64,000 nucleotides of DNA from Bacteroidota bacterium (GTDB lineage: Bacteria; Bacteroidota; JABWAT01). Both the position numbers and the translations under genes were made by a program. Shown here in pieces: positions 1,872-61,273 of the stretch. The DNA is taken from NCBI GenBank assembly GCA_023151185.1, contig JAKLJL010000013.1, positions 1 to 64,000 on the forward strand, in the 5' to 3' direction. Under the pieces are notes generated by a model. The model saw only the letters and a list, made by a program, of their open reading frames with translations, ran no database searches and was not told where the DNA came from. Within the stretch, counting starts at the first letter, position 1, and each line of letters opens with the position of its first letter.

Positions 1872-1908
1872 AACTAACCCTAAGATTTTTATTGTATTGT
1901 TTGTAACT

Positions 1909-1942: not shown

Positions 1943-1979
1943 GTCGTTTAAGTAGAATGGACGATTTGTTTGCACTTTA

Positions 1980-2013: not shown

Positions 2014-2027
2014 ACCTCCCTTTTTAA

Positions 2028-31599: not shown

Positions 31600-32541
31600 A
31601 TGAACCAACTTACCTCTTTAGAAATTTGTGCAGGTGCAGGCGGTCAGGCTCTTGGACTTGAACAAGCTGGGTTTCAGCATCTGGCGCTTATTGAAATTGA
31701 CCATAATGCCTGCTTAACCCTTGAATTTAATCGGCCAGTTTGGAATGTAATAAGAGGAGATATTAAAAATTTTGATGGATCAAAATTTTTAAACACAATT
31801 GACCTGCTTGCTGGCGGAGTTCCCTGTCCCCCATTTTCTATTGCCGGCAAACAACTGGGTGAGAATGATGAAAGGGACCTGTTTCCCGAGGTTTTGCGTT
31901 TGGTAAATGAGATAAACCCAAAAGCAATACTCATTGAAAATGTTAAGGGGCTTCTGGACAGGAAATTTTCTCAATACAGAGAACAGATAATCAGGGAGTT
32001 AGATATATTGGGTTATAAATCTGACTGGAAACTGATTAATTCTTCTGATTTTGGAGTCCCGCAATTACGCCCGAGAGCAATTTTAGTCGCCATGAAACCA
32101 CAATACTTTACGAAGTTCAACTGGCCCCAAAAGAAGGCTGAAATTTTAACAGTAGGTGAAGCACTATACCCGTTAATGAGTGAATTAGGTTGGGAAAAAG
32201 CATCCGAATGGGTAAAAACCGCCTACAAACCTGCACCAACGCTGGTCGGTGGTTCAAAAAAACATGGAGGGGCAGACCTTGGCCCAACAAGAGCTAAATC
32301 AGCTTGGAGAGATTTGGGGATTGATGGCTCTGGAATTGCCAATGAAGCCCCACGAAATGGGTTTGCCGGAAACCCAAAACTAACCCTTAAAATGACTGCA
32401 AGAATTCAGGGGTTTCCTGACAACTGGACGTTTGTGGGAAAAAAAACACCAGCATACCGGCAAATAGGAAATGCATTTCCTCCACCAGTAGCAAGAGAAA
32501 TCGGGATCGCAATTATTCAGGCGCTGAAAGATGAAAAATAA
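31600..32541 (+). CDS. DNA (cytosine-5-)methyltransferase
   Basis: Type II modification methylase of 313 aa. Motif I LEICAGAGGQALGLEQAGF, catalytic motif IV GGVPCPPFS with the nucleophilic Cys, motif VI IENVKG, motif VIII region VPQLRPRAI, and C-terminal motif X YRQIGNAFPPPVAR are all present. The target-recognition region (about residues 180-260) is short, and its specificity cannot be read. Base composition is more AT-rich than neighbours. It overlaps the HNH gene by 11 bases, making a complete methylase-nuclease pair. Its own promoter probably lies in the AT-rich 31500-31599 spacer, where a duplication of TATA-like stretches occurs. Confidence 0.93.
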   Translation: MNQLTSLEICAGAGGQALGLEQAGFQHLALIEIDHNACLTLEFNRPVWNVIRGDIKNFDGSKFLNTIDLLAGGVPCPPFSIAGKQLGENDERDLFPEVLRLVNEINPKAILIENVKGLLDRKFSQYREQIIRELDILGYKSDWKLINSSDFGVPQLRPRAILVAMKPQYFTKFNWPQKKAEILTVGEALYPLMSELGWEKASEWVKTAYKPAPTLVGGSKKHGGADLGPTRAKSAWRDLGIDGSGIANEAPRNGFAGNPKLTLKMTARIQGFPDNWTFVGKKTPAYRQIGNAFPPPVAREIGIAIIQALKDEK

Positions 32542-33109
32542 TAAGAAAAAAGGATCAAAAGGCCTTTTACGTCAATTCTTTTTTACAAATATTGGAAAGG
32601 TAATTTCCTCAGATGAACTAAGAGAGATAGCGGGAATAAGTGAATGGGCGAGACGGGTCAGAGAACTCAGAAACGAGGAAGGACTTAACATCCAAACTCA
32701 TAATGATCGTAGTGATTTGAAACCCGGTGAATATATTCTGGTTGATCTAAAACCAATACCATCCTTTGCTCGCGAAATATCAAAGGAAACCCGAGCTTTG
32801 GTTTTAGATAGAAATGGGTATACTTGTCAATCGTGCGGAGCCGCTGCAGGGGAACCAAATCCCTACGATGGAAACAGAAAAACAAGACTGCATATTGCAC
32901 ATATTATTGATAAGTCAATGGGCGGCTCTGATGAGCCTGCAAATCTCAAAGCGGTATGTTCAGTTTGCAATGAAGGAGCGTCAAATCTAACATTGAACCG
33001 TCCGGAAGCAATTAAGCTAATATCTCAAATCAGAAGAGCACCTGTTAAAGATCAGCTTGATGTTTTAAAATGGCTGGTAAAAAAATTTCCTGCTCAAGCA
33101 AAACAATAA
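32531..33109 (+). CDS. HNH restriction endonuclease partner
   Basis: The 192-aa protein has a winged-helix-like N terminus (residues 1-65; KVISSDELREIAGISEWARR) and a C-terminal HNH nuclease: CQSCG, then LHIAHIIDKSMGGSDEPANL, then CSVCNEG. The two CxxC pairs form a zinc-stabilised HNH site. The overlap with the methylase gene and the shared AT-rich composition show a type II restriction-modification system. The N-terminal part may bind DNA. Target sequence unknown. An imperfect hairpin followed by CTTTT lies between its stop and the convergent next gene. Confidence 0.88.
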   Translation: MKNNKKKGSKGLLRQFFFTNIGKVISSDELREIAGISEWARRVRELRNEEGLNIQTHNDRSDLKPGEYILVDLKPIPSFAREISKETRALVLDRNGYTCQSCGAAAGEPNPYDGNRKTRLHIAHIIDKSMGGSDEPANLKAVCSVCNEGASNLTLNRPEAIKLISQIRRAPVKDQLDVLKWLVKKFPAQAKQ

Positions 33110-36069: not shown

Positions 36070-37530
36070 TTAAACCTCATATCTTTCCAATTTTTGATCT
36101 TCTTGAAATCCTGTTATCTCATGTCGTGGTCTAAGTAATTTTTCTGCTGGAAACCCTATAGAAACATGAGCTGTAAATTCCCAAGTTCCTGATCTGGCAA
36201 ATTGTTCCTCCATCTTTTTTGCATAAAACGTTGAATTCCAGGCAAACCCGAGGTTTTCATTAATTGCAGCAAGCCAAAGAGTATGTATCGCACTTATTGT
36301 CGAATGTTTTAAAGCGTCTGGGAATGTTGCCCATCCCTGTCTAAAACCAGCCGAAGGTTTAGTTTCAGTAAACACAGATAATTGAATCGGTGCGCTAAGA
36401 AAGCCTTCTAAATTAAGATTATTATAAGCAGAGACCTTTCCTTTGGGTAAAAAGGATTTTGTGATTTTATTTGCTGAAAAATAATTTTCCTTCAATAAGA
36501 GTAAAGATTGAGGGGATTTTATCTCAACAATTCGCCAAGGCTTACAATTGCCAACAGAGGGAGCTCCGTGCATTTGTAACAATATTGAATCAAGAATATC
36601 CTTCGAAACAGGATCAGTTTTAAATAATCGTGTTTGTCTACGATTTTGTAATATGTCGTTAAAAATGCCATTTGTAAGGGATTTCATTACGTTTTGTGAT
36701 TCCTTTCTAAATACAAAATGGGGCCACGCTTGCTCGCAATGTATTCTATGGCTAATTATCATCTCTTCCATTGCTTGAGTGGCACCCAAACATGAAGAAC
36801 TATCTGCATCATCATAAACTAAATACGCCCCTGTACACAGGTTTGGCCAAACAGCTTCCTGGGCAAAGGAAACTGATGAATAGGTATCGCAATCAATATG
36901 AACCAGTCCAAATGATTCAGTCATATTCTTAACCTGCATAAAGGTATCTTGAAATTTTCCTTGAATAATCATCAAGTTGGTTATTCCAAGTTCAGAACAA
37001 CGTTGCTCCAAGATCTTTCTGCTACAATCAGCGAAATCCCCTTTTTTATGCAAATCTAATGCTGAATCAGAAGTTGGAATCCCTTCAAACGTATCCAAGG
37101 CAAAAACTTTTGAATTCGGTGATAACCTATTTAATAATACGCTAAAAAAAATTGCGGTTCCTCCTTTGTAACTTCCAAATTCAATAATATTTTGGTTTTC
37201 CAGACCTAACAGTCCTTCTGTGATCATCAAGAAAAGATTAAACATCCTTTGTTTTGGTAAAATACTGAAGACGTCAACCCCTTGGGCTTTTTCATACGCC
37301 TCGTTAAATAAAGGATTTTGCTCAATTTTCAAATACAGGGACGTATTTTGAAGCATCCATCCCCGTCGATATCCTTCACTTAAATTCCTTCTCTTTTCAG
37401 ATTTTTCCATTTCAGGAATCTCTGTACTTCCTTGCCACCTTGAATTTTTCCTGGCAAGTGATGGTAATTCATCCCTGCAAGGCGGTGTGAACTCAATACC
37501 AAGAAATTCGATTTGCTTTAATTTTGGCAT
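36070..37530 (-). CDS. Fusion of a TylF-like methyltransferase and a BluB-like nitroreductase
   Basis: One 486-aa ORF holds two enzymes. Residues 1-280 resemble TylF/MycF macrocin-type O-methyltransferases: IIEFGSYKGGTAIFF at about 113, ALDTFEGIPTSD, and HIDCDTYSSVSFAQEAVWP near 211 with DDADSSSCLGATQAMEE. Residues 290-486 are nitroreductase-fold and BluB-like: RRQTRLFKTDPV at about 297, APSVGNCKPWRIV at about 322, LEGFLSAPIQLSVFTE, and LWLAAINENLGFAWNS. In BluB the position after RR is, as I recall, a catalytically needed Asp; here it is Gln299. So flavin cleavage as in cobalamin lower-ligand synthesis is doubtful, though FMN binding is likely. The gene ends an AT-rich operon with an importer and is convergent with mqnD, 8 bases apart. 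I know of no such fusion; substrate unknown. Confidence 0.8.
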   Translation of the reverse strand: MPKLKQIEFLGIEFTPPCRDELPSLARKNSRWQGSTEIPEMEKSEKRRNLSEGYRRGWMLQNTSLYLKIEQNPLFNEAYEKAQGVDVFSILPKQRMFNLFLMITEGLLGLENQNIIEFGSYKGGTAIFFSVLLNRLSPNSKVFALDTFEGIPTSDSALDLHKKGDFADCSRKILEQRCSELGITNLMIIQGKFQDTFMQVKNMTESFGLVHIDCDTYSSVSFAQEAVWPNLCTGAYLVYDDADSSSCLGATQAMEEMIISHRIHCEQAWPHFVFRKESQNVMKSLTNGIFNDILQNRRQTRLFKTDPVSKDILDSILLQMHGAPSVGNCKPWRIVEIKSPQSLLLLKENYFSANKITKSFLPKGKVSAYNNLNLEGFLSAPIQLSVFTETKPSAGFRQGWATFPDALKHSTISAIHTLWLAAINENLGFAWNSTFYAKKMEEQFARSGTWEFTAHVSIGFPAEKLLRPRHEITGFQEDQKLERYEV

Positions 37531-37571: not shown

Positions 37572-38345
37572 TTATTTTTTTTTTCGATCGTAAATTAAAC
37601 GGAGCCCAATTAAAACAATATAGATGAAAGCAAAAATAGATACAAAAGAGTTTAAGAAGCTATACTGATGGGTCCATAACAAAACGACAATAGAAAACCA
37701 TGTTAAAAATGCAATAAAATCAGAAAGACACCATAATCCTAATTTTTTGACGATAGGGTTTTTAAACAATTTTTTGTCTTTTCCCTTTTTAATATAAATA
37801 GTAATCATGCCAAATATAGACCAGACCATAAAAAGCAAGAATGTGACTGTTATTAGAATTAAATAAATTAGTTCCTTATTACTTAATTCAAAATTCATTT
37901 TCTGAACCCAGGCTATGATCAGTACCTTTTTTTCGGGGAAAAAATCAAGAAGGCTTATAACAGAATCACCTTTGGAGAAAGCACCTAAAACAATAATAAT
38001 AATAAATAACCTCAATATTTTCTCTAACCTTGATCCCACCCACCCATGTGTCTTATTTTTCCAATCTTTTTCTTCCTTTTCTAAAATATGGAAGCCCTGG
38101 TATATTATATATTGGTGATAAGCTGAAAATAATATTACTATGTAAAAAAGATATCTTAAAATATCATTAATAATATTATCTTTTAAGCCTGAAGTAATTG
38201 AATATTTTTGTATTGTATGTGATATTTTCAAGGAAATAACAATACCAGCAATGGCAAACAATAATGTATATATTTGGCTTATATTTATTTTTTGTATTTT
38301 ATCCCAAGCTAATTTTATGTTTGAGCCAAATTGAGGAAATAGCAT
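37572..38345 (-). CDS. Polytopic membrane protein of unknown function
   Basis: The 257-aa protein has about six hydrophobic segments (SQIYTLLFAIAGIVISLKI, ILRYLFYIVILFSAYHQYI, ILRLFIIIIVLGAFS and others) separated by Lys-rich loops. I do not recognise a family. It is encoded between an ABC ATPase gene (38-base gap) and the methyltransferase-nitroreductase fusion (41-base gap) in the same AT-rich operon, so it may take part in handling the same compound. Base composition matches its neighbours and not the core genome. Confidence 0.65.
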   Translation of the reverse strand: MLFPQFGSNIKLAWDKIQKINISQIYTLLFAIAGIVISLKISHTIQKYSITSGLKDNIINDILRYLFYIVILFSAYHQYIIYQGFHILEKEEKDWKNKTHGWVGSRLEKILRLFIIIIVLGAFSKGDSVISLLDFFPEKKVLIIAWVQKMNFELSNKELIYLILITVTFLLFMVWSIFGMITIYIKKGKDKKLFKNPIVKKLGLWCLSDFIAFLTWFSIVVLLWTHQYSFLNSFVSIFAFIYIVLIGLRLIYDRKKK

Positions 38346-38383: not shown

Positions 38384-39130
38384 TTATCTTGCAATGATTT
38401 CAGCCCTAATAAATTCCTTAAGTTCCTTTGTAAAGGGTCTTCTGAAAAGGGTTTTTGGAGGGCCTGACTCAATTATCGTCCCATTATTCAAAAAATCTAT
38501 TCTCTCCCCATATTGCCTTAAAAATCCAAGCTGATGTGAAATAAAAACTATTCCAATGCCTCTTTCACTCGCCTTCACAAGAACATCAGCAACAGAGACA
38601 GAAGCAATGGGGTCAAGATTTGCAGTAATTTCGTCGCAAAGGAGGTATTTGGGCTCCATTGCCAATGCCCGTGCAATACATACCCTCGCTAATTGGCCGC
38701 CTGATACTTCTCCTGGAAATTTGTTTTCATGACCATTTAAACCAAATGTTCTTAAAAGCAATTTTGCAATTTTTCTGGAATCTTCGAGTTTTATTTTCTT
38801 TACTACATTGGGCCCTTCAGCAACTAAATCAAGAATAGTCCTATATGGTGGAAGAGCACGCACCTGTGATACATATCCAATATGTTGCCTAAGAAATGCC
38901 CAAGGAAATTTCACTTCAACAGGAAATTGAATATTAACATTTTGCTCATCAAAGAGGTACTCCCCTGCTTCAGGCCTCTCCAGTCCGACAAGACTTCTCG
39001 CCAACACAGTTTTGCCAGAGCCACTCGTTCCGACCAACCCAACAATTTGCCCAGGAAGAATAGTGAAATCGACACCCTTTAAAACAGGAGTTGTTCCGAA
39101 ACTTTTATACAGTTTTTTTACTTTTAACAT
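38384..39130 (-). CDS. Amino-acid-type ABC transporter, ATPase subunit
   Basis: The 248-aa protein has all ABC ATPase motifs: Walker A GTSGSGKT, Q-loop HIGYVSQ, signature VSGGQLARV, Walker B YLLCDEIT and H-loop FISHQ. Overall it is of the polar amino-acid uptake (GlnQ-like) group. It overlaps the permease gene by 26 bases. With the adjacent permease and binding protein it forms a complete importer. The imported compound is not known; the downstream methyltransferase-nitroreductase fusion may act on it. Confidence 0.88.
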   Translation of the reverse strand: MLKVKKLYKSFGTTPVLKGVDFTILPGQIVGLVGTSGSGKTVLARSLVGLERPEAGEYLFDEQNVNIQFPVEVKFPWAFLRQHIGYVSQVRALPPYRTILDLVAEGPNVVKKIKLEDSRKIAKLLLRTFGLNGHENKFPGEVSGGQLARVCIARALAMEPKYLLCDEITANLDPIASVSVADVLVKASERGIGIVFISHQLGFLRQYGERIDFLNNGTIIESGPPKTLFRRPFTKELKEFIRAEIIAR

Positions 39131-39809
39131 TAGCTGAAGAAGGGTTTAGCTTAATTGAATTTAGATCTTCAATTTTCCGTAAAATAAAAATTGATGGGAA
39201 TACCAGAACAGAGTAACATATGGCCATCGCGGTATATATTTCAAATGGTAGCGGTTTTTTTAACATAATTAATTGAAAAGAATATGTGAGTTCAGGAACG
39301 GCAATTAGAGATGCTAAACTAGACATTTTAATTAACCCAATTGTTTGTCCATTTAAAGCTGGAAAGGAACGACGAAAAACCTCAGTAAATATAACCCTCC
39401 TAAAAACCATTGAATTAGTCATACCCAGTGCTAATGCCGACTCCTTGGTTGTTTTTGGGATGGCAAGAATTGCCCCTCGAAAAATATCAGCTGCATATGC
39501 TCCATAAATTGCAATGAATACAACTAAGGAGGAAGTCAGTCCATTTAATCGTATGCCAACCCAAATTGGCAAGGCAAAATAAATCCAAACGAGCCAAACA
39601 AGTGGGGGTATTGCACGGATAACTTCAACAATTGCTGTAAAAAGCCAAAATAATAACTTTCTGTTGTCTGCTGCTAAAATCGGTGAGACAGCTAGCCCAA
39701 TTAAAGTGCCAAATATTGTGGGAACTATGGTGAGGATAATTGTAAAGCCAAGACCTAATAGTATTGCATCACAAAATTCACACAAAGCCAAAAAACTTGA
39801 AAACTCCAT
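39105..39809 (-). CDS. Amino-acid-type ABC transporter, permease subunit
   Basis: The 234-aa protein has about five membrane helices (LGLGFTIILTIVPTIFGTLIG, LLFWLFTAIVEVIRAIPPLVW and others) and the HisM/GlnP-type features VEVIRAIPPLVWLVWIYFA, YGAYAADIFRGAILAIP, and TIGLIKMSSLASLIAVPELTY, of which the EAA-like loop contacts the ATPase. The ATG overlaps the binding-protein stop (TAATG), so translation is coupled. A single permease suggests a homodimer. Confidence 0.87.
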   Translation of the reverse strand: MEFSSFLALCEFCDAILLGLGFTIILTIVPTIFGTLIGLAVSPILAADNRKLLFWLFTAIVEVIRAIPPLVWLVWIYFALPIWVGIRLNGLTSSLVVFIAIYGAYAADIFRGAILAIPKTTKESALALGMTNSMVFRRVIFTEVFRRSFPALNGQTIGLIKMSSLASLIAVPELTYSFQLIMLKKPLPFEIYTAMAICYSVLVFPSIFILRKIEDLNSIKLNPSSANVKSKKTV

Positions 39810-40648
39810 TATTGAAAGTTACTTCCAGCCTCATCGTACCATATTTTTGATTTAGAATATTTTAAATTTATTGAATCCAACTCACCTGAGATTTTTAGGT
39901 TCCTAATAGCAACATCCAAGAATTCTTTAAGAAAATAATCTTCTGACCTTACCAAAAAACCAGCGTTCTGCCTACTTAGTACCATTTTTTCTAGTACCCG
40001 TACATTTGAATTATTTTCCGCAAACCGAACGGCAGTACCATAATCCACAATGGCTACATCCGCTCGTCCTGCTGCCACTTCCAGCATTCCCAAATTTGGG
40101 TCATTTGGCGGAAATTCAGAAATAATTGCCCCTTTCATGAATTTGGACACAAAATCAGCATCAAAGCCTCCTCTGCCAACTGCAACTCTTAGCCCACTTT
40201 TTTGCAAATCACTAATTGCGTTGATACTGTTATTTTCATTTGAAATTACAGGAACGACAGCAAAATCATATATCGGCTTTGAAAATAAGTACTCGAAGGC
40301 TCGACCCTCGGTCATAAATATCGGACCAATAACAACATCAACTTGGTTTGAAATTAAGGCAGAACCGAAAGTCTCCCAACTACTTGAAATGAATTCAATT
40401 CTTAGGTTGGTCCGTTTTCCAATTGCAGCAATAATATCTACCGAATGCCCGGTAGCAGTTTTCGTTCCCGCGTCATATAAGGATACAGGAGGAACTGACA
40501 AAACACCTACTTTTAAGGTAGTTATTTTATTTTTTCCAATCTTTTCCTCAACATTAGCTACTCTATTTATTATTATTAGCGAATAAATTGACATGCAAAT
40601 GGCAACAATGGCTATGACCATTTCATAAGTAATTGAGATTTTTTTCAT
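39809..40648 (-). CDS. Amino-acid-type ABC transporter, substrate-binding protein (membrane-anchored)
   Basis: The 279-aa protein has a type 3 solute-binding fold: TLKVGVLSVPPVSLYD, GHSVDIIAAIGKRTNL, WETFGSALISNQVDVVIG, FSKPIYDFAVVPVI. The N terminus has a hydrophobic helix (MVIAIVAICMSIYSLIIINR) without a lipobox or clear signal peptidase site, so it may stay anchored by this helix. It is the first gene of the five-gene AT-rich operon and is preceded by an unusually strong Shine-Dalgarno sequence. The carboxylate-contacting Arg expected for amino-acid binders is at TEGRAFEYLF, not in the usual place, so the substrate may be atypical. Confidence 0.82.
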   Translation of the reverse strand: MKKISITYEMVIAIVAICMSIYSLIIINRVANVEEKIGKNKITTLKVGVLSVPPVSLYDAGTKTATGHSVDIIAAIGKRTNLRIEFISSSWETFGSALISNQVDVVIGPIFMTEGRAFEYLFSKPIYDFAVVPVISNENNSINAISDLQKSGLRVAVGRGGFDADFVSKFMKGAIISEFPPNDPNLGMLEVAAGRADVAIVDYGTAVRFAENNSNVRVLEKMVLSRQNAGFLVRSEDYFLKEFLDVAIRNLKISGELDSINLKYSKSKIWYDEAGSNFQ

Positions 40649-40650
40649 AT

Positions 40651-40660
40651 CCTTCCTCCT
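40651..40660 (-). promoter_or_regulatory. Strong ribosome binding site of the importer operon
   Basis: On the minus strand AGGAGGAAGG ends 2 bases before the ATG at 40648 (the AGGAGG core is about 6 bases away). Most genes in this window have weak or no such sequence, so it stands out and fits foreign origin of the operon. Confidence 0.7.
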
Positions 40661-41679
40661 TTTATTTTTTTCTTTTCGAAAATTCTTATATAAATGAGAA
40701 AATAAAATGAATTATTTGAATTATTTTATGGAACTCATTTTGTCCAAAACAAATGCAAGAATGTATATTTAATTCTGCACGACTCATTTAATCAACAAAA
40801 ATGACTTAAAAAAAACCGATTTTATACTCCACGATATCAAAATGAAGAATTTATTTATAATCCAATTTTTAAAGGGATCCAATCTTAAATTAACTTTAGA
40901 GTCCACTTTATTTTAAAGAAGATTACTAATATGCCGAGGCTGTATATCAAATAATTCAGATTCCACTTGGAAACATATGATATTCGACCGATTTAATGAG
41001 TTAAGCATTTTCCATTTATTTCTTCATACCGAGAAACAAAATTAGTACCAATGCTGTTTGAATAATTCGTTTGCCACTATCACCCAATGTTTAAAAAACA
41101 GAATAGGAATATTGGCAGTTGAGTGAATATTTTTTACCTTACTTCATTTACGGAGATGAGAATACCTGTAAATCACCTATTTAGAAAAACAAAGTAACTT
41201 GGCTTTTCGAAACTTCAATAACATTATAATACCCCACAACACCCAAAGAACTACCTATAAAAAAGGTTCTTTTATAAACTAATATCACTCCTTTTCATGG
41301 CAAATGCAATACAAAGCATTTTTTATAATCCAGAAAAAAGGATCATGGGTTTTTGTGCAATTTGACCTTAGAAGTCTCCACTTGGTGCCAATAGGTAATC
41401 GCAGAAGCTTTTAACTAAATGACCAATAGTTGTCATGCTGCGTACATTTATGTTTTTACCCATTCCACTTTCTATTTCAGATACAATTTTCTTCTTTCCC
41501 TCAGACTACCCTATTGAACTTTTTACAGAACCGGCTCCCTACCACCTTAAGGCGAAAGGAAACCCGGCCGGTTTACAGAGAGGTATTCAAACAGTCTCAT
41601 CTGCCGGCCGTTGGCATCTGACCGCCGGATACCGTACCTTTGCCACCGAACTTCACCCCTTTACCAAATGTTATTTGAA
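40661..41679. other. AT-rich region without recognisable genes (about 1 kb)
   Basis: No credible ORF on either strand; the short track ORFs at 41430 and 41435 start in AT-rich sequence and have no recognisable features. Seen: a weak hairpin AAAGAAC/GTTCTTT at about 41250 and AAATGC/GCATTT with a short T-run at 41302-41323. The promoter of the importer operon should lie near 40670-40760. Composition changes to the core CCGG-rich style at about 41530. Confidence 0.6.
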
Positions 41680-49441: not shown

Positions 49442-50068
49442 TTATTTTTTAAATCTGATCCTTTTAAGTCTCACATTCTCAACATAATTCTTATCTGCCA
49501 AATTAAGTGTATCCTGTGTTTTTATCTCCTGAAAGCAGTTATTGTTAATTTCAAAGGTCCAGATTGTTGGATAATCCATTTTGTTGTTTTTTGTAAATCC
49601 AAGAATATAAACGAAATCAGTTTTAACCCAATAAGCTTCTTCTGGTCTGCAATCAGTTCCGCCAAGTAATAGCCTGATCCTTCTTTTTCCTTTTATATCA
49701 ATCAAGGCAGTTTCAGTATCCACTTCGCTGCCATTTGAAGTTAATTGTCCAAGGGAGTCCTTCTCAAGCATTAGTGAATACCTGTCTAAATCAATGAAAT
49801 AAGAAGAATCAGGTGAAAAGACAAAAAAATCAGTAAATAGATTACTTGTGTCGGATAAATACTCATATTCAAATGAAATTGCGTTTCTCCCGGTCTTTGG
49901 TAGTGAATCACGAAACGATTCCAATTTTAAGTCATAATAATTTAACCATCTCTCAAGTCTGTTTTTATTTGACTGATTCTCCTGCCTGTCAGAAAATTCA
50001 GTTTTAATATCCCGATTCCCACATGATATCAGGAGAGTAATCAAGCTAACTGTCAGTATGAATCTCAT
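49442..50068 (-). CDS. Lipoprotein of unknown function (AT-rich module)
   Basis: The 208-aa protein begins MRFILTVSLITLLISCGNRD; ISC is a lipobox. The rest (SFEYEYLSDTSNLFTDFFVF, IDLDRYSLMLEKDSLGQL, WVKTDFVYILGFTKNN) looks like a small beta-rich domain of a kind common in Bacteroidota accessory DNA. No family recognised. It is the only gene in its module, with an attC-like element on each side. Confidence 0.68.
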   Translation of the reverse strand: MRFILTVSLITLLISCGNRDIKTEFSDRQENQSNKNRLERWLNYYDLKLESFRDSLPKTGRNAISFEYEYLSDTSNLFTDFFVFSPDSSYFIDLDRYSLMLEKDSLGQLTSNGSEVDTETALIDIKGKRRIRLLLGGTDCRPEEAYWVKTDFVYILGFTKNNKMDYPTIWTFEINNNCFQEIKTQDTLNLADKNYVENVRLKRIRFKK

Positions 50069-50087
50069 GTAACGTATTTTTTAAAAT

Positions 50088-50230
50088 GAACCATAACGTT
50101 TTGCGGCTTGGCGTAGTGGCGGATTTTTAGCACAAAAGTTCAATCGGAGAACTGCACTTGAACCTACCATAAAACTGTCATACGAAGCACTGCACCCGCC
50201 ATTACGCCAAACCGCTGTTGGTGGCTGGTG
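50088..50230 (-). repeat. attC-like palindromic element 1
   Basis: About 140 bases with strong terminal inverted arms: GCGGCTTGGCGTAGTGGCGG near the left and CCGCCATTACGCCAAACCGC near the right. The centre (ACTGTCATACGAAGCACTG) is shared with element 2. On the minus strand it starts GCCACCAAC and ends at GTTATGG, so it fits the general layout of an integron recombination site placed after the genes of a cassette. Confidence 0.6.
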
Positions 50231-50275
50231 TTCTTGTTGTCCGCAATTTATTTTAGTTATCAATTTCTGTTTTTG

Positions 50276-51283
50276 TTAGTCAAATAAATTTCCTTGCTGA
50301 AAAGTTGTCGAGCTTTTAACTGTCGGCTGTTTGTTCAATATTTTCGAAACTGTTTCGTAAATATTTTCCTGTGTTATTATTGTGATGTCCCTTTGTTCTT
50401 TGATTAAATCTCTGTTTAAGTCAAACATTGGGTTGTTTTCGTCAATATGTTCGTCATACATTACTGCCCTCGGAATACCATAATCTTTTGCGAAACCCAT
50501 AGCTAAACGAGCACCACTGTCAAGTTTTTGTCCAAACATTTTCCATCGTTCAGCCGAATTTTGAGCATAGCTTGCAGCCAAAACAATTGTGTCGCAGAAC
50601 AACGCTTGTAATCGGTCTCTTTCTTTGTAACGACTACTTAGTTCCATTTGGCTTTTAAAATCAGTTCCATATTCTGTAACAAGCAAACCGCCTTCTTCTA
50701 CAATTTGGAACGCTAAACCTTTATTTCTTACTGGCATTATACTACTGAGTGGACTTGGCAAAACTGCAACGGTTTTACCATTAGAATCTAATGCTTGTTG
50801 ATGTGATATGCTGTCGCAACCAAAAGCGAGACCACTCACTATGGTAGCACCTTTCTTTACAAATTCAGCAACTATTTTTCTTTCTCTTTCTTCTATATCG
50901 CCTTCTGGGTTTAAAAGTCCAATTACAGTGATGTTTATATTGTCAATGCTCAATAAGTCGATGTTGCCTTTGTAATAAAGAAAAATAGGTCTTTCACTTT
51001 CTTTCACATTGCCACGATGTTTAGGGAAATCTTTATCTCCTAATGCTACAATCCCATCACAAAGTTCATTGTCAAACTTTTCTAAAAGCTTATTTTCAAA
51101 ATTATTTTTAAGACGTTCAAATTCATCTTCGTTTGTTTGCTCTCCTTTGATTGTTTTGTTAAGCAATGAAACAATTGTTTCCACACTTTCGTTGCCCTTC
51201 AGATTTTTCACAATCCAAGCATTACCAATTCCTTTGTAAGATTTGGTTGTTAAAATATTTAATGCGTTATCGGTATACTTCAT
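50276..51283 (-). CDS. DprA/Smf-like nucleotide-binding protein of a three-gene module
   Basis: I start at the ATG at 51283, 10 bases after the stop of the upstream gene; the track start overlaps that gene by 92 bases. The 335-aa protein has a helix-hairpin-helix-like N terminus (SYKGIGNAWIVKNLKG), a DprA-type middle (FPKHRG ... PIFLYYKGNIDLL) and a Rossmann-like core with GATIVSGLAFGCDSISHQQA at about 145-165 and GGLLVTEYG. These match the Smf/DprA (SLOG superfamily) pattern. Canonical DprA loads RecA in natural transformation, but this copy sits with a phosphoribosyltransferase and a HAD phosphatase, as in some immunity or toxin-antitoxin loci. Foreign, AT-rich. Confidence 0.8.
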   Translation of the reverse strand: MKYTDNALNILTTKSYKGIGNAWIVKNLKGNESVETIVSLLNKTIKGEQTNEDEFERLKNNFENKLLEKFDNELCDGIVALGDKDFPKHRGNVKESERPIFLYYKGNIDLLSIDNINITVIGLLNPEGDIEERERKIVAEFVKKGATIVSGLAFGCDSISHQQALDSNGKTVAVLPSPLSSIMPVRNKGLAFQIVEEGGLLVTEYGTDFKSQMELSSRYKERDRLQALFCDTIVLAASYAQNSAERWKMFGQKLDSGARLAMGFAKDYGIPRAVMYDEHIDENNPMFDLNRDLIKEQRDITIITQENIYETVSKILNKQPTVKSSTTFQQGNLFD

Positions 51284-51293
51284 TGTCGCTAAA

Positions 51294-52049
51294 TTATTGA
51301 TTTCGTGATACAGTTTTTCCAACGGAGTAAAAAGTAACAGAATTGGCTCCCTTGTCCAATAGTGCTTGAATTGCATCTTCATCAATGTTTACGCTTTTCG
51401 TGTATAAATCATCAATGAGTAAAATGTTTTTGCCATTTACCTGTCCTGAAATTGTGCAGGTGTCTTTTGTGATTCCTGGGTATGGCAAATTTCCGTCACC
51501 ACCTTCGCCATTTCTGTCTAAATGCGTTGTTCTTGTATTTGTGTGTCGCACAATGTAATTAGTTCCGTTTTCAAAATTTGGCAATTGGTCAACCACATTA
51601 CTAATTACCATTCTAAAAAGTAATTGGTTGGCTCTATAATGACCTTCCGCTTTTGAACGTGGAACAACACAAACGGTAAAATTGTTCTTTCTTGTCTGTC
51701 TGAGGATTTCTGGTAAATCTTGCCTTAATATTGCTGAAAGCTGTTGCTGGACTTTAGGTAGTCTTTCAGGAAATGGGTCAACATCATTCTTAAAAGTCCA
51801 AATCAAATTTTCAATACTATTGGGGATTTGCCAAGAACTACCACTATTATAATCAGCGTGAAAAAATGCATTTGTATTCTGTTTGAGAAATGTCCCAATT
51901 AATCTGATTTCATCAGAGTCATTTACGAAAAATCCTGTGTTGGCAACTCTTCCTTTTCGTTTGTCACCAATAAGTCTTCGAAAGTTAGCTTCTCTTTCAT
52001 TCGGTATTTTATACCATTGTTCTTCTGATAAGATTGTGAAATTTTCCAT
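51294..52049 (-). CDS. Phosphoribosyltransferase-domain protein of the DprA/HAD module
   Basis: The 251-aa protein ends with a PRPP-binding motif, ILLIDDLYTKSVNIDEDAIQ, at about 205-222, followed by GANSVTFYSVGKT; this is typical of type I phosphoribosyltransferases. The N-terminal 200 residues have ...VCVVPRSKAEGHYRANQLLF, another part of that fold, and a region I cannot assign (GFFVNDSDEIRLIGTFLKQN). It could be a toxin or make a nucleotide-like product. The start is 4 bases after the HAD stop, and the DprA-like gene begins 10 bases after its own stop, so the three are one operon. Confidence 0.78.
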   Translation of the reverse strand: MENFTILSEEQWYKIPNEREANFRRLIGDKRKGRVANTGFFVNDSDEIRLIGTFLKQNTNAFFHADYNSGSSWQIPNSIENLIWTFKNDVDPFPERLPKVQQQLSAILRQDLPEILRQTRKNNFTVCVVPRSKAEGHYRANQLLFRMVISNVVDQLPNFENGTNYIVRHTNTRTTHLDRNGEGGDGNLPYPGITKDTCTISGQVNGKNILLIDDLYTKSVNIDEDAIQALLDKGANSVTFYSVGKTVSRNQ

Positions 52050-52052
52050 TTC

Positions 52053-52649
52053 TTATAGATTTGTTGGGTTGATAATTGTTATCCCTGCTTTATGTGCATC
52101 CGCAATTTCGCTTTCTTCATTTTCAAAAGCGATAATCAAATTGGGCGGAACGCCCAATTTTAAAATAGCATTTTGAAATTTGTTTATTTTTTGTCCATTG
52201 TCGCCAAACTCTCTGTAGAAAATATTGCTGAATTTGTCGTCAAGTCCGAAATGTATTAATGTTTTCATTGCTCTGTCTTTTCGGCAATTTGTTACTAAAA
52301 CAGTTTTGTTTGTTTTTGAATACTTAAAAAGTATTTCTGCGGTTTCTACATTTAGTTTTGTTTCGTTTAGAAAGTCGTTGTAGTATTCTTCCTTTTCTTG
52401 GATTATTCTCTCGTATTCTTTCTCCGTCAAGTTTGGAACAGCAGTTTTAAGACTACTACGGTTAAAGCGTTTGTCAGAATTGTATGTTAGGTCGTGGTTT
52501 GATTTTGTTACGGAAAGTATTGCCTTCTTGTATGAAAGAAAGTTTGCAAGGTTTGTATCTACCAATGTTCCGTCCATATCGAAGAATAAAACTGTGTCTG
52601 CCGTGATTTTACTGTCAAGGTCTTGAATTAATTTGTCTTTTTGCTCCAT
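52053..52649 (-). CDS. HAD-family phosphatase of the DprA/phosphoribosyltransferase module
   Basis: The 198-aa protein has HAD motif I FFDMDGTLVDT at about residues 22-32, motif II in VLVTNCRKDRAM, a helical cap in between (residues 35-105, rich in K and E), and motif IV-like AFENEESEIADAHKAGI. It is the first gene of a three-gene minus-strand operon with PRTase and DprA-like genes. Likely a nucleotide or sugar-phosphate phosphatase, perhaps removing the product of its partner. Confidence 0.82.
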   Translation of the reverse strand: MEQKDKLIQDLDSKITADTVLFFDMDGTLVDTNLANFLSYKKAILSVTKSNHDLTYNSDKRFNRSSLKTAVPNLTEKEYERIIQEKEEYYNDFLNETKLNVETAEILFKYSKTNKTVLVTNCRKDRAMKTLIHFGLDDKFSNIFYREFGDNGQKINKFQNAILKLGVPPNLIIAFENEESEIADAHKAGITIINPTNL

Positions 52650-52691
52650 TCTTCTGTTCCGTTTTTCGTTTATGTGGTCGTCTTTACACTT

Positions 52692-52827
52692 GCCACCAAC
52701 GTTTTGCGGCTTGGCGAAGGTGGCGATTTTACCACTGAAATTTCATACGAAGCACACACTTCAAATTTACGAAAAACTGTCATACGGAGCACTGAACCGC
52801 CACTTTTGCCAAACCGCTGTTATCAGC
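52692..52827 (-). repeat. attC-like palindromic element 2
   Basis: Homologous to element 1: arms GCGGCTTGGCGAAGGTGGCG and CCGCCACTTTTGCCAAACCG, centre CATACG-AGCACTG. On the minus strand it starts GCTGATAAC and ends GTTGGTGGC. GTTGGTGGC at its end is the reverse complement of GCCACCAAC at element 1, and GCTGATAAC is the reverse complement of GTTATCAGC at 61.27 kb on the minus strand; both are 9-bp perfect matches. Confidence 0.6.
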
Positions 52828-52923
52828 TGCCCTTCTGTCTGTCCGAAGTGTTGTCGTTGTTGAATATACACTAAATTGTCCACGTTGTTTGCGGTCTGGT
52901 CTGCGGTGCACGGGTGCGGTTGC

Positions 52924-52988
52924 TTGCACTCTCTTTTGCTTTTGCTGCGTTTGCCTGTGTGTGGTTGCAAAAGCAAATGTGAGTGCAA
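52924..52988. repeat. Imperfect 22-bp inverted repeat after the P-type ATPase gene
   Basis: TTGCACTCTCTTTTGCTTTT (plus GC) pairs with GCAAAAGCAAATGTGAGTGC (plus AA), 19 of 22 positions, with a 21-base loop. It follows the ATPase stop by about 40 bases, where a terminator would be expected, but no T-run follows. Confidence 0.5.
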
Positions 52989-53029
52989 ATGAGTGGGTTT
53001 TGTATGCACTGTCATTACGATTGCAGGTT

Positions 53030-54934
53030 TCAATGTCCGCTTACAATTTTATTTTCAAACTTCATCAAATTCAAACTTGTCAAAATTACTATAAGTGTTA
53101 CTCCAACGTATGCTGCAATAGCGAAAACCAAATTGCTGTAACCAATAAAGGCAAGCGTTATGAAAATGAGTTTAACTGCTATTGCTCCAATGGTGTTGAA
53201 TTTTATTCTGCGTAAAGTTTTTTGACTTAACCGAATGAGAAACGGAATGAGTGAAAGTTTATCGTTCATTAATGCAATGTTTGCGGTTTCTATGGCGGTG
53301 TCGCTTCCTGCTGCTCCCATTGCTATGCCTACGGTGCTTTGTGCAAGGGCTGGTGCATCGTTTATGCCATCGCCTACCATTGCTACAAATTTATATTGCT
53401 GCAATAGTTCTTTGATTTTTTCGGCTTTGTTTTCGGGTAGCATATTGCCGAATATTTTTTTGATGCCTACTTGCTGTGCTACATAGTTTGCTGCTTTTTC
53501 GCTGTCGCCTGTAAGCATTACAGGTTCTATGTTCATAGCTTCTATTTCTTTTAACGCTGCTGCACTGTCGGGTTTTATTTCGTCCATCAATCCAATAATT
53601 CCTGCAACTCCATTGCCAAAACTTACTACTACACTAGTTTTGCCTTGGGCTGAAAGTTGCTCTACAATTTTTAGTGCTTCATTGTCTATGGTTTGAGTTT
53701 CTTGTATAAAATCTAATTTGCCTACATAAATTGTTTCGTCCTCACACACCAAACATTTTGCAGTTGCCCCTTTGCCCATAATGCTTTTGAAACCTTCGGT
53801 TTTGTGTGGTTCAAAACCTTCCTTCTTGCTTGCATCAACTATGGCTTGTGCCAATGGGTGTTCGGAAAATATTTCTGCTCCTGCGGTGCAAGCCAATAGT
53901 TCTTCACGGCTTGTTCCGTTCAATGGGAAAATATCCGACACGATTGGATTTCCAAAAGTGATGGTTCGTGTTTTGTCTAATGCAATTGCTTTTATTGATG
54001 CCAATGCTTCAATATATTTTCCACCTTTAACTAATGCTCCTTTTACTGATGCGTTGCCTATGGCTGCATAAATTGCAACGGGTGTAGAGATGACTAATGC
54101 ACAAGGACAAGCAATAACTAAAAGTGTAATTGCCTGTTGTAACCAATGGTTAAAATCTAATTGCATTGCAAATACGGGAATTACAAAAACTAAAATTGCC
54201 ATTGCAATAATGGACGGTGTGTAATACTTTGAAAATTGCTGAATGAATTTTTGAGTTTCACTTTTGTTGCCTTGTGCTTCAAATGTTAGGCGAATGATTT
54301 TTGAGAAAGTTGTATCAACAGAAAGTTTGGTTGTTTCCATTTCTATGAAACCATTTTTGTTTAGCGTTCCTGCAAATAAATTATCGCCTATGCGTTTGTC
54401 TTTAGCAATTGGTTCGCCTGTGATGGCAGCTTCATCAACCATTGTTTCGCCTGAAATAATTTTGCCGTCAAGCGGTATCATTTCACCTGCTTTGACTTGA
54501 ATGATTGTGCCGACTGCAATTTTATCAATAGCCACATTTGCATTTTCAGTTTTTACAAAAGCGGTCTTGGGTGCTTTGCTTACTAATTCATCTAATGCAG
54601 ATTTTGAATTTTCAATTCCTATATCTTCTAATCGTTCGCCTAAAACATAAAGCACTATTACAACTGCTGCTTCTGGATATTCGCCCAAATAAAATGCTCC
54701 GATAACGGCAATAGTCATTAGTAAATTGATGCTGCTGAATTTGAGTTTGATGATTGCTTTTACTCCGTTCCATAAAACATTGTAGCCAATTCCTAAAATA
54801 AAAATGGCGAAAAAAAAAGGTGCATAAGGCATTGGTATGTGTATGCCGATGATAGAAAGAATTTCTAACGCAACTACTATTGTGATTGCTGAAAGAAGAA
54901 AAAGGAATTTTTTATCGTTGATTGGTAACTTCAT
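53030..54934 (-). CDS. Heavy-metal P-type ATPase (CPC class) with DKTRT motif
   Basis: The 634-aa protein has the P1B topology: eight predicted helices, CPC in IACPCALVIS at about 279, ATP-binding region with SEHPLAQAI, GDGINDAPAL at the hinge, and actuator AAITGEP. No N-terminal metal-binding HMA domain is present. The phosphorylation motif reads DKTRT at 320-324, where nearly all P-type ATPases have DKTGT; the codon is CGA, one base away from GGA. The change could impair the pump or be a sequencing or assembly error. It is the last gene of the metal module, 23 bases after CusB. Zn, Cd, Pb or Cu efflux is likely. Confidence 0.85.
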   Translation of the reverse strand: MKLPINDKKFLFLLSAITIVVALEILSIIGIHIPMPYAPFFFAIFILGIGYNVLWNGVKAIIKLKFSSINLLMTIAVIGAFYLGEYPEAAVVIVLYVLGERLEDIGIENSKSALDELVSKAPKTAFVKTENANVAIDKIAVGTIIQVKAGEMIPLDGKIISGETMVDEAAITGEPIAKDKRIGDNLFAGTLNKNGFIEMETTKLSVDTTFSKIIRLTFEAQGNKSETQKFIQQFSKYYTPSIIAMAILVFVIPVFAMQLDFNHWLQQAITLLVIACPCALVISTPVAIYAAIGNASVKGALVKGGKYIEALASIKAIALDKTRTITFGNPIVSDIFPLNGTSREELLACTAGAEIFSEHPLAQAIVDASKKEGFEPHKTEGFKSIMGKGATAKCLVCEDETIYVGKLDFIQETQTIDNEALKIVEQLSAQGKTSVVVSFGNGVAGIIGLMDEIKPDSAAALKEIEAMNIEPVMLTGDSEKAANYVAQQVGIKKIFGNMLPENKAEKIKELLQQYKFVAMVGDGINDAPALAQSTVGIAMGAAGSDTAIETANIALMNDKLSLIPFLIRLSQKTLRRIKFNTIGAIAVKLIFITLAFIGYSNLVFAIAAYVGVTLIVILTSLNLMKFENKIVSGH

Positions 54935-54957
54935 TGTATGATTATTTTAAAATTTAA

Positions 54958-56232
54958 TTAATGTTCGTGTGCTTCACCTTTGTTGTTCATTTTAGCCAAA
55001 ATAAAAAATGCACCGTTCACAACAACTTTACTGTTTGCTGGAATATCTTTTAGCAAAGTAATTTCGCTGTAACCCACATCGGTAGTGCCTTTTCGGATGG
55101 GGATTTTTTCAAAGGTTGTTCCTTCTTCGTTGTGTTCGGGTTTTTCCTTTTCGCTGTGTTGGTGTCCGCCTTCATCGTGCTTGTGTTCGGTAGTTTCTTT
55201 TTCCGAATGATGTTCTTCTTCCTTATGAGCATCGGTAACAATAAAAATGTAGTCCTGCCCTTCGTGGTTTACAATGGCGTTGGTGGGCACTGCATCAACG
55301 GTAGCGTTTTCTAAACTTACCAATGCCGTAATGCTCATGCCGTCAATCAATCCCTGCTTGTTTCCTTTCACCATTGCATGAACGGCAACGGCTTTTGTGT
55401 TTTGCTCAAAGGTGTTACTGATGGCGAAAACATCTGCATCATATTCTTTGCCCGGATTGTTGGTGAGCGTAAAATGTATTGTTTGACCTTCTTTGAGTTT
55501 ATGCAAATCTTTTTCATACACATACAAATCCAAATGCAGTTGGCTGTTGTCCACTATTTCGGCAATAGGATTATTGGCATCTACAAAGCTTCCAATGTTT
55601 ACCATTACGTTGCTGATAGTGCCGTTTATAGGGCTTGTAATATTTATAACTGACTGGATATTTTCACTTGAAAGAGAATTTGTATTGATGCCGACAAGTT
55701 CTAATTGCTTTTGCAAACTTGCTTTACGGGCTTTCAATGTTTTTAGTTCTGCATCGGCTGACTGCAAGTTTTTCAATGCACCTGCATTGCCTTGTTGCAA
55801 TTCTTTTTGTCGGGTAAATTCTAATTGTGCTAACTCTGCCTTTGAAGAAACACTTAAAAATTCTTCTTGCATTGTGATGAAAGAATTATTTGAAATGGTG
55901 GCAATTACTTGTCCTTTGCTTACCGTATTTCCCGTTTGCACCAGAATAGATTTGATAACTCCACCCAATGATGCTGTAGCGTTTGCCCTGTTTTGATTAG
56001 GCACTTTCAAAAGTCCGTTGGCTTTGAGTGAAGCTGTGAGTTGCTTTTTCTCAATACTTCCCAACTCAATTTTTATGGATTTCATTTGCTCGGCTGTAAG
56101 CATAGCCGTGTTGGAGTTTTCGTGTTCATCGTGATGCTCGGTTTCTTCTCCGTGCGTTTCGGTTTTATTGCTGTTGCAGGATGCAAATACTATTGATGTT
56201 GCAAGGGCTGCTATAAAGATTATATTTTTCAT
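54958..56232 (-). CDS. RND efflux periplasmic adaptor, His-rich lipoprotein (CusB/CzcB-like)
   Basis: The 424-aa protein has a lipoprotein signal (MKNIIFIAALATSIVFASC) followed by ETHGEETEHHDEHENS, then the HlyD-type core: GGVIKSILVQTGNTVSKGQ (lipoyl-like), coiled-coil QKELQQGNAGALKNLQSADAE, and SPINGTISNVMVNIGSFVDA. A second His-rich loop, HKEEEHHSEKETTEHKHDEG, is inserted near 320. These segments can bind metal ions. It couples the inner-membrane pump to the outer-membrane channel; gap to CusA is 12 bases. Confidence 0.88.
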   Translation of the reverse strand: MKNIIFIAALATSIVFASCNSNKTETHGEETEHHDEHENSNTAMLTAEQMKSIKIELGSIEKKQLTASLKANGLLKVPNQNRANATASLGGVIKSILVQTGNTVSKGQVIATISNNSFITMQEEFLSVSSKAELAQLEFTRQKELQQGNAGALKNLQSADAELKTLKARKASLQKQLELVGINTNSLSSENIQSVINITSPINGTISNVMVNIGSFVDANNPIAEIVDNSQLHLDLYVYEKDLHKLKEGQTIHFTLTNNPGKEYDADVFAISNTFEQNTKAVAVHAMVKGNKQGLIDGMSITALVSLENATVDAVPTNAIVNHEGQDYIFIVTDAHKEEEHHSEKETTEHKHDEGGHQHSEKEKPEHNEEGTTFEKIPIRKGTTDVGYSEITLLKDIPANSKVVVNGAFFILAKMNNKGEAHEH

Positions 56233-56244
56233 TTTTGTGAAATT

Positions 56245-59200
56245 TTATTTGTTGATTAAGAAATTAATGTTGATGACTGACTGATTGAGTTGGTTAACAC
56301 TTTGCAGATAATTCAACTGCACATCGGTAGCGGTTTGCAATGCCTGTAAGTATTCTATGTAGCCAATGTCGCCACTTTTGAAACCAAGCGTTGCGGTGCT
56401 GATAATTATTTCGGCATTAGGCAAGGCAGTTGATTGGTAGAAATTGTATTGCGACAAATTCTGGTTGTATTGCTGAAAAGCATTTTTCAGTTGGTTTTGT
56501 AAAATGAGTTTTCCGTTGTCGGCTTCTGCTTGCAATGCCTGTTGCTTGTAGTTCAGCGATTTTATTCTTGATGCGTTGCTGAAAAAAGTAAGCGGAACAC
56601 TGATACCGACACTAACACCCTGAAAGCGTTTGGTGCCGTCAAAATTCACTTCCGTTCCATTTACATTTTGAAACCCGATTAAGGACTGATTGAAATAACC
56701 CACACTGAAATTGGGAAACGCAGAGGCGGTTTCAACTTTCTTGTTTTGCTCTGCAATTACTGCTTGCTGATACAACACTTTCAAAGAAGGATTATTTGCA
56801 ACAAGCGTGGTGTCAAACGAATTGCTTAACACAAGCGGTTGCAAATTTTCATTTACGCTAATTGTAAAATCTTCGCTTGTATTCATCAGTGTTTTCAGCG
56901 AATTGTAAGCGGTTGCAAACTCGGTTTCGTTTTGTTTGAGTAAAAGCAAAAGCTGTCCCCGTTTGGTTTCGGCTGTGGTTTTTTCCAACAGATTTGTTTC
57001 ACCTGTTTTGTAACGCAAAGCGGCAGCACTTACAAAATCCTTATACAAACTGTCTAACGATTGCAGTTGTTTTTTTGCAGTTTGCAAATACTGTAACTGA
57101 TAAAACCAGTATTGCACCTGTGCTTTTATTTCGTTGGCTGTGGCTTGCTGTTGCAATTCACTGTTTTGCAATTCGGCTTTATACAAACCTGATTTTGCTG
57201 TGTAATAAGTAGGGAAGGGAATACTTTGTGAAATCTGAAACGCATTATCATTATTGATGGTATTGAATTGTCCGTATTGAAAATTCACATCTGTTTTAGG
57301 CAATTCAAATACCGATTTTTTTAACGTAGCGGAAGATTGCACATTGAGTTGTTGGGATTGCATTTCTAAATTATTTTTCAGTGCGGTGCTTATTGCATCA
57401 TCAACCGAAATGGTTTTGGTTGATGGCGTTTGAGCATTTGCCATATTGAATGAAAGCAATGCAAATACTAAAACTACAGTTGTAGAAATACTTTTTTTCG
57501 CTTTTCCAATTTTAGAAAACAAAACATACAATAAAGGCAATACAAACAGTGTCAAGAATGTGGCTGTAAGCAATCCACCTATCACCACGGTTGCCAATGG
57601 TTTTTGTACTTCTGCTCCTGCACTGTGCGAAAGTGCCATTGGCAAAAATCCTAATGATGCAACAGTGGCGGTCATTAGCACTGGTCGCAAACGAATTTTT
57701 GTTCCTTCAATTACCCTTTGTATTACATCACTCACTCCGTCTTTTTCTAATTGGTTGAATGTGCTGACTAATACAATTCCATTTAGCACCGCCACACCAA
57801 ACAAGGCAATGAAACCAACACCTGCTGAAATACTAAATGGCATATCACGAATGAGTAACGCAAACACACCGCCTATTGCACTCATGGGAATGGCTGCGTA
57901 AATAAGAGTGGCTTGTTTTACTGAAGTGAAAGTGAAGTAGAGCAACATAAAAATGAGAGCCAATGCAACAGGCACGGCTATCATCAACCGTGCGGATGCG
58001 GCTTGCAGGTTTTCAAATGTGCCTCCGTAGGTGTAATAATATCCTTCTGGAAGTTTAACTTTCGTGTCTAACTGTTCCTGAATTTCTTTTACCACACTGG
58101 CTACATCTCTGCCATTTACATTAAAGCCGACTACAATTCTCCTCTTGCCATCTTCACGGCTTATTTGTGAAGGTCCCAATTCCATTTTAATTTCTGCCAC
58201 TTGTGATAAAGGAATTTGTGTTCCGTTGGCAAGAGGAATATAGAAGTGGTCTAAATCGTCAATGTCGCTTCGGTGCAAACTGTCTAACCGCACCACCAAA
58301 TCAAACCGTCTTTCATTTTCAAAAACGACGCCTGCCGTTCCACCTGCAAAGGCAGTGCTTACAATGTGATTGATGTCTTCAATGTTCAATCCGTAGTTTG
58401 CAATTTGTGTCCTGTTGTATGTGATTACAATTTGCGGAAGCCCTGCAACCCTTTCTACACTCGGTTCGGTAGCACCTTCCACACTTTGAACAATTGCATT
58501 TACTTTATTGGCATAGTTCAAAAGAGTATCCATGTCCTCACCAAATATTTTTACTGCAACATCTTGCCTTATGCCAGTCATGAGTTCATTGAAACGCATT
58601 TGAATGGGTTGGTTTTTTTCAAAGAACACACCGGGAATAACTTCCAGTTTCTCCATGATTTCATCTGCAAGTTCCTCATAGGAAATATCCCGTTTCCATT
58701 CATCGGGCTGTTTCAGAATTACCATCATGTCGGTGGCTTCGGGAGGCATAGGGTCGGTTGGCACTTCGGCACTTCCTGTTTTACCAACTACCATCTTCAC
58801 CTCGTCAAACTGTTTGATGATTCTTGATGCCTGCATACTTGTTTCAATGCTTTGAGAAAGCGATGTGCCTTGCGGCAATATGCAGTGAAAAGCAAAATCG
58901 CCTTCGGCAAGAACGGGAATAAATTCGCCTCCCAATCGTGTGAACATAAAAATACTTACCGCAAAAGCGAACACCGTTGCACCAACCACAATTCTTTTTG
59001 CGTGAATGGCTTTTTGTAAAAGCGGTGTGTAAATGCCTTGGAAAAAATCCATTATCCTGTCACTGATATTTCTTTTGTGCGAAGTTTTCTTGCTCAGAAA
59101 AACTGAAGAAATCATCGGGATGTAAGTGAGTGAAAGAAGAAACGCACCCAGAATGGCAAACGAAACAGTTTGAGCCATTGGTCCAAACATTTTTCCTTCA

Positions 59201-60615: not shown

Positions 60616-60716
60616 ATTTTAATCAGTTTAATGAATGAATACACGATTACTTGCGGTGCGTTAGTACCGTAAGTAGTTTTGTTTTGTCCCGCTGAAAGCG
60701 GAAAATCATAAATTCA

Positions 60717-61040
60717 TTAACTGATTTTCGGCGGTTGCCAAATAGACAAATACACCTCTGAAACAAATGAGGCGCTGTACATCGGGAATTTGTCTAACGA
60801 AACAGGAACGTTAAGGGTTAAACTGTAATTACTAAACGAACTACTAAAAGTTTGTCCGCAACAAGCACACATACAAAAAGGTGAGCAATGCTCGGTGTCG
60901 CTGTCGTGGTCTGAATGGTATGTTGTTGCGAAAGTGGATTGGACGGCACTCTGATATTTACAGTCGTCATTGTCGCTGCACGGCATGACTGCCAGAGCCA
61001 ACAAGCAAAAACTAAAAAAGAGTGTCAAAAATGTTTTCAC
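60717..61040 (-). CDS. Small Cys-rich secreted protein, first gene of the metal module
   Basis: The 107-aa protein has a signal peptide (MKTFLTLFFSFCLLALAVMP) and a Cys-rich middle with CSDNDDCKYQ and EHCSPFCMCACCGQTF. It resembles small proteins that precede CusA-like genes in Bacteroidota (DUF6660 is my best memory of the family name). Cysteines and the gene order suggest metal binding or sensing in the envelope. It lies 101 bases before the RND gene. Confidence 0.65.
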   Translation of the reverse strand: MKTFLTLFFSFCLLALAVMPCSDNDDCKYQSAVQSTFATTYHSDHDSDTEHCSPFCMCACCGQTFSSSFSNYSLTLNVPVSLDKFPMYSASFVSEVYLSIWQPPKIS

Positions 61041-61264
61041 AGGACAAATGTAGGAAAAAAAATTGTCAATTTAAAACAAAACTGTCGGATGGCACTGGTG
61101 TGGTTGGGCAAAATCAAAATGTGCTGCAAAAGCGGGTCGGTTTGTGGGTGGCTTTGCAGCTCTCTTTATTTTGCGAAGGGATAGCCAAACGGCTTTGCCG
61201 AAAATTGTACTTTCGGTCGGGTTTTGTCTGGCGGTTGATAGTTGCACGGTCGGGTTTTAGGGTT

Positions 61265-61273
61265 GCTGATAAC
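61265..61273 (-). other. Putative module boundary core site
   Basis: On the minus strand GTTATCAGC. It is the perfect reverse complement of GCTGATAAC that opens attC-like element 2 in the same direction, 8.4 kb away. It thus forms the start of the metal module. No attC-like arms lie on the far side, so this edge could be the attachment site of the array or a secondary insertion point. Confidence 0.45.

Follow-up and report, generated by a model that had tools for sequence, protein, structure and literature searches.

What might be the role of a gene that joins a methyltransferase to a relative of BluB, when the aspartate conserved in BluB is replaced by glutamine? The question is raised by an open reading frame on the minus strand of the window, the 64,000-nucleotide stretch of Bacteroidota DNA analyzed here. 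The sole reaction for which BluB is known breaks down FMN to yield the lower ligand of vitamin B12, 5,6-dimethylbenzimidazole (DMB).

One reading frame with two domains

The frame has exact bounds at 36070 and 37530 and runs uninterrupted for 486 codons. Base-shuffled versions of the sequence (2000 shuffles) contain 35 in-frame stops on average and at least 14, whereas the frame itself has none; the other five frames of the same stretch carry 17 to 48 stops each. Pfam identifies a TylF domain (PF05711) at residues 89 to 253 (E value of 1.8e-14; 54.1 bits versus a cut-off of 23) and a nitroreductase domain at residues 295 to 459 (E value of 4.8e-16, over its cut-off). This confirms the in-frame fusion of two complete domains that had been proposed from the letters alone. 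The features of the gene are as follows:

36070..37530, minus strand: fusion gene of a TylF-type O-methyltransferase and a BluB-type nitroreductase, 486 amino acids (ORF call, Pfam, NCBIfam, and PDB sequence matches)
36757..37266, minus strand: TylF/MycF-type methyltransferase domain, residues ~89 to 258 (Pfam PF05711; AlphaFold pLDDT of 80.6)
36808..36894, minus strand: acidic D-x-D ... DD set of the methyltransferase, Asp213, Asp215, Asp240, and Asp241 (conservation in 31 homologues)
36085..36669, minus strand: BluB-type nitroreductase domain, predicted to bind FMN, residues ~288 to 482 (TIGR02476, 135 bits; AlphaFold pLDDT of 89.5; 2isj, TM score of 0.83)
36634..36636, minus strand: codon CAA for Gln299, at the place of BluB Asp32 (Asp in 129/129 homologues)
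36232..36234, minus strand: codon TCA for Ser433, at the place of BluB Ser167, retained (Ser in 129/129 homologues)

Hardly any linker separates the domains, the methyltransferase ending at about residue 273 and the BluB part starting at about residue 283. An ATG codon (Met283, position 36684) lies at this junction, approximately where a free BluB would start. A search of the same genome gave no further copy of either half, and the fusion is the sole nitroreductase-family gene found there.

The predicted fold of the methyltransferase half, which was modeled separately from the BluB half in AlphaFold, is closest to the structures of CalS11, MycF, SpnH, and NovP, mostly sugar O-methyltransferases from natural-product pathways. 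Asp213 and Asp215 are invariant among 31 homologues and Asp240 and Asp241 are at least 90% conserved; the fusion retains all four, and acidic residues of this kind hold Mg2+ in MycF. Judged by sequence, those features of TylF-type methyltransferases that were examined, namely, a score over the PF05711 cut-off and the D-x-D and DD residues of the putative metal site, are present in the fusion, and nothing suggests decay of this half. The protein thus resembles the TylF, MycF, NovP, SpnH, and CalS11 O-methyltransferases in domain, predicted fold, and acidic active-site residues, whereas those relatives found with solved structures bear the names of sugar or natural-product O-methyltransferases and have no fused flavoprotein.

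The BluB half and its active-site residues

The best NCBIfam model for the C-terminal half is that of BluB (TIGR02476; E value of 2.1e-39), and the next model reaches 32 bits. The score of 135 bits for the protein, or 137.5 in the genome search, is below the equivalog cut-off of 150. Across 297 genomes of the phylum, proteins above this cut-off score 157 to 275 bits and the best non-BluB nitroreductases score 74, which places the C-terminal half far closer to BluB than to any other group. The top PDB match is BluB (2isj), both by sequence and by predicted fold, and the three motifs by which the sequence-only reading had recognized a BluB-like rather than a general nitroreductase (APSVG-x-x-x-PW, LEGFLSAPIQL, and LWLAAI-x-E-x-LG) are all present.

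In the trees, the BluB half groups with alphaproteobacterial BluB proteins (support of 92/88 in one tree and 97/95 in the last), to which its identity reaches ~41%. Its terminal branch is about sixfold longer than the median (3.0 versus 0.5 changes per column), and an approximately unbiased (AU) test does not reject its placement as sister of all BluB (p value of 0.37), as opposed to the nesting supported at 97/95. Under either placement the domain stays on BluB's side of the nitroreductase split, and the position in a non-BluB clade that would have spoken against this relationship was not seen. On the evidence of sequence and model, the C-terminal half is most likely a descendant of BluB.

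In a gap-free part of the alignment, Gln299 occupies the place of the catalytic Asp in the RRD motif (D32 in Sinorhizobium meliloti BluB), which bears out the replacement of the expected Asp noted from the sequence alone. The position is Asp in all of the 129 homologues, a set biased to alphaproteobacteria and to the window's own phylum. An error at one base would not be enough to account for the change, because CAA differs from the nearest Asp codon at two positions. Three further positions invariant in the set are altered (G430A, L470H, and W475F), and V432N and I434T flank Ser433. Asp32 was reportedly required for DMB formation in the BluB mutants of Yu and colleagues (2012); our search of the literature on Asp32 found no paper.

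The residues that frame FMN are retained, namely, R297, R298, R301, P324-SVG-327, P331, W332, G399, S410, W419, G428, S433, and G459. This conservation speaks for selection rather than decay, and from these motifs and the predicted fold we infer that the BluB half binds FMN. Nevertheless, the function of BluB in DMB synthesis has probably been lost, given the change of D32 to Gln, the other changes at invariant sites, the long branch, and the score below the equivalog cut-off.

Compared with BluB (DMB synthase, or flavin destructase), the fusion half is thus alike in fold, in the RRxxR and PSVGxxxPW motifs, and in G399, S410, W419, and S433. It differs in Gln299, in its score and branch length, in being joined to a methyltransferase, and in belonging to a genome in which neither CobT nor CobS was found. 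By sequence, the fusion belongs to the nitroreductase superfamily and is related to BluB, and it is not filed as BluB because it fails on the cut-off, Asp32, and the genome partners.

Genomic setting and distribution

CobT and CobS were not found in the organism's own genome (97.7% complete) or in three relatives, so the product of the BluB half cannot serve as the lower ligand of B12 by the known route. Each of the four genomes contains a single cobalamin riboswitch, which, with no CobT or CobS found, suggests that B12 is taken up and not synthesized in these bacteria. The riboswitch of the window's genome (C26:2023-2253) lies within ~2.5 kb upstream of a gene for a 631-amino-acid protein that by eye resembles an outer membrane receptor, as would fit B12 import.

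The fusion closes a run of five genes on the same strand, in which it is preceded by those for a substrate-binding protein, a permease, an ATPase, and a membrane protein:

39809..40648, minus strand: membrane-anchored substrate-binding protein, family 3 (SBP_bac_3, 5.4e-21; one N-terminal hydrophobic segment; PDB relatives)
39105..39809, minus strand: ABC permease, polar-amino-acid type, overlapping both neighbors (Pfam/NCBIfam)
38384..39130, minus strand: ABC transporter ATPase, polar-amino-acid type (Pfam/NCBIfam)
37572..38345, minus strand: 257-amino-acid membrane protein of no known family, with ~5 hydrophobic segments and a GC content of 27% (hydropathy; no family match)
40649..41434, minus strand: AT-rich stretch upstream of the operon, with no gene of 70 or more amino acids, likely a leader/promoter region and the edge of a foreign segment (ORF/GC scan)

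The genes of this operon are separated by gaps of 41 and 38 bases or overlap by 26 and 1. A scan for promoters and terminators gave matches no more frequent than in shuffles. The three transporter genes resemble polar-amino-acid ABC importers of the GlnHPQ or cystine type in providing a substrate-binding protein, a permease, and an ATPase, but they score below every equivalog cut-off. The PDB relatives of the substrate-binding protein are amino-acid-binding proteins and the cyclohexadienyl dehydratase lineage, and its best match is cyclohexadienyl dehydratase (1.8e-19). By eye, the Glu that we take to be catalytic in that enzyme is a Thr here, which makes binding likelier than catalysis. The 257-amino-acid protein has no match in Pfam, NCBIfam, or PADLOC, and searches of 395 genomes of the phylum and of plasmids found it nowhere else.

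The operon has a GC content of 27 to 40%, compared with ~52 to 55% in neighboring host genes. The third-codon GC of the fusion (0.24 to 0.32, both halves) is similar to that of the other four genes (0.26 to 0.30), whereas host genes show 0.58 to 0.65. Synteny with the three relatives reaches mqnA, seven bases past the fusion stop, and then ends, and searches with the fusion and the membrane protein indicate that the operon is absent from these relatives. The simplest account of these sequence features is that the five-gene set was acquired together by horizontal transfer. That the fusion is the tail of a seemingly acquired transporter operon had escaped the sequence-only reading.

Other parts of the window also have a low GC content. 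Positions 31600 to 33109 encode a DNA cytosine methylase together with a protein resembling restriction enzymes (GC content of 39 to 43%) between genes that are adjacent in the three relatives, forming a small restriction-modification insertion absent from them. A second low-GC stretch (mostly 33 to 43%) at positions 49442 to 62707, with a 1,456-amino-acid protein resembling RND efflux pumps and its neighboring genes, is possibly another acquired island.

No other example of the fusion turned up in the collections searched, in keeping with the expectation that none was known. It was not found in the three close relatives, and a search with the whole fusion in about 395 genomes of the phylum gave only matches confined to a single half. 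Exact fusion peptides had no relative among GTDB genomes and viral contigs, and tblastn against plasmids and phages matched either half, never both together. A motif scan of GTDB genomes for the BluB subgroup returned at least 592 relatives, the best 80 of which match the BluB half only. Split homologues in neighboring genes were sought as well, and the flanks of these best 80 contain no TylF homologue. An apparent N-terminal extension of one BluB relative (L099) was rejected as a domain, as by eye it looks open but noncoding. No paper on a TylF-nitroreductase fusion was found in the literature, and the fusion has no defense-system match. Within these collections, covered by motif patterns, among the matches listed, and in depth for one phylum, the architecture is rare and a single example was found.

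Known BluB fusions pair BluB with an enzyme that uses its product, and the BluB/CobT2 fusion channels DMB (PMC4657239). As in BluB/CobT2 of Propionibacterium and in the BluB-CobT proteins of other bacteria, a BluB domain is joined here to a second enzyme, but in those fusions the second enzyme is a phosphoribosyltransferase that serves B12 synthesis (PMC4657239), and here Pfam finds TylF and no B12-synthesis domain. The three B12-type fusions of comparable length that were aligned (L010, L012, and L013) retain Asp32, unlike the protein described here. On an Acidiphilium multivorum plasmid (L065, positions 1891 to 3597), a single open frame of 568 codons apparently encodes a CobC-like aminotransferase followed by BluB, although the record annotates only a BluB of ~215 amino acids. 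CbiY of Bacillus megaterium, a BluB-related flavoprotein, was reported to bind flavin yet not to synthesize DMB (PMC3573010); by description, it is comparable in ancestry but is a single-domain protein encoded in a cobalamin operon. The fusion combines features of the BluB/CobT2 type and of CbiY and is identical to neither.

Proposed function and alternatives

The reading that we favor, with a probability of about one half, is that a BluB-derived FMN oxidoreductase and an O-methyltransferase act sequentially on one small molecule and that the fusion is not a DMB synthase. The gene would encode a bifunctional tailoring enzyme. Its N-terminal half, with the acidic active-site set intact, would be a Mg2+- and S-adenosylmethionine-dependent O-methyltransferase of the TylF/MycF type. 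The C-terminal half, in which the FMN-binding frame is retained, Asp32 lost, and the loop around Ser167 altered, most likely uses FMN as a redox cofactor, in the manner of ordinary nitroreductases, and would oxidize a small molecule, or oxygenate it with O2, rather than fragment FMN to DMB. The FMN-dependent step (oxidation or oxygenation) and the O-methylation could occur in either order on the same molecule, and the presumably cotranscribed amino-acid-type importer may supply this compound or a precursor of it. All five genes would have arrived together by horizontal transfer. The sequence-only reading had suggested stepwise modification of a flavin-derived or other aromatic compound; an origin of the compound from flavin is conjectural. 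Fusion partners commonly, though not invariably, share a substrate, and the importer could be unrelated to the substrate of the enzyme.

Several other explanations were weighed. The BluB half may no longer be an enzyme and may persist as a flavin-binding or structural remnant that dimerizes or regulates the methyltransferase, which would then perform the only chemistry. The very long branch and the loss of D32 and other invariant residues agree with this, but random decay would not keep the FMN-holding residues at an overall identity of at most ~41%, and we consider it unlikely. It is also quite unlikely that the BluB half still breaks FMN, through Gln299 or another group, into DMB or another flavin fragment that the methyltransferase modifies to give a metabolite unrelated to B12. 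The ordinary conversion of FMN to DMB is itself unlikely from the sequence, given the loss of Asp32, the long branch, and a genome that, as far as the searches for CobT and CobS show, has no means of using DMB; Asp32 is invariant (129/129 homologues) and, as noted, reportedly necessary, and DMB offers no hydroxyl to an O-methyltransferase. Such a flavin-breaking activity would nevertheless agree with the BluB ancestry, the retained FMN motifs and Ser167, the precedent of BluB/CobT2 in channeling DMB (PMC4657239), and the cases encountered in this analysis in which BluB is joined to a B12 enzyme (L012, and the CobC-like half before BluB in L065). A broader form of this idea is a long shot: a Gln-for-Asp variant of BluB could break FMN to a product other than DMB, capped by the fused methyltransferase; the reaction would be one step in a transported pathway, spread by horizontal transfer and separate from B12 metabolism, for a small molecule derived from flavin.

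The remaining alternatives question the unity of the protein or of the operon. The two halves might act on different substrates and be fused merely for coexpression, next to an unrelated amino acid importer. No sequence feature links all three functions to one compound, yet five codirectional genes that overlap or nearly abut and share one foreign base composition make this improbable. The locus might instead produce two separate proteins, either because the halves became joined recently or through an error (loss of the stop between them) or because an internal start at Met283 also yields a free BluB-type protein, as the position of this codon and the near absence of a linker would allow. Against this are the frame, open end to end in one assembly, the codon bias of both halves, which matches that of the operon, and the lack of a second copy of either half among the genes found in the genome, and we give it little credence.

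The fusion thus presents a seemingly intact, natural descendant of BluB in which the conserved Asp is replaced, in a genome where the partners of B12 assembly were not found. Such a protein is a ready-made test of the role of the Asp and of other chemistry on the BluB scaffold, and the fused methyltransferase and the adjacent importer provide handles for finding its substrate.
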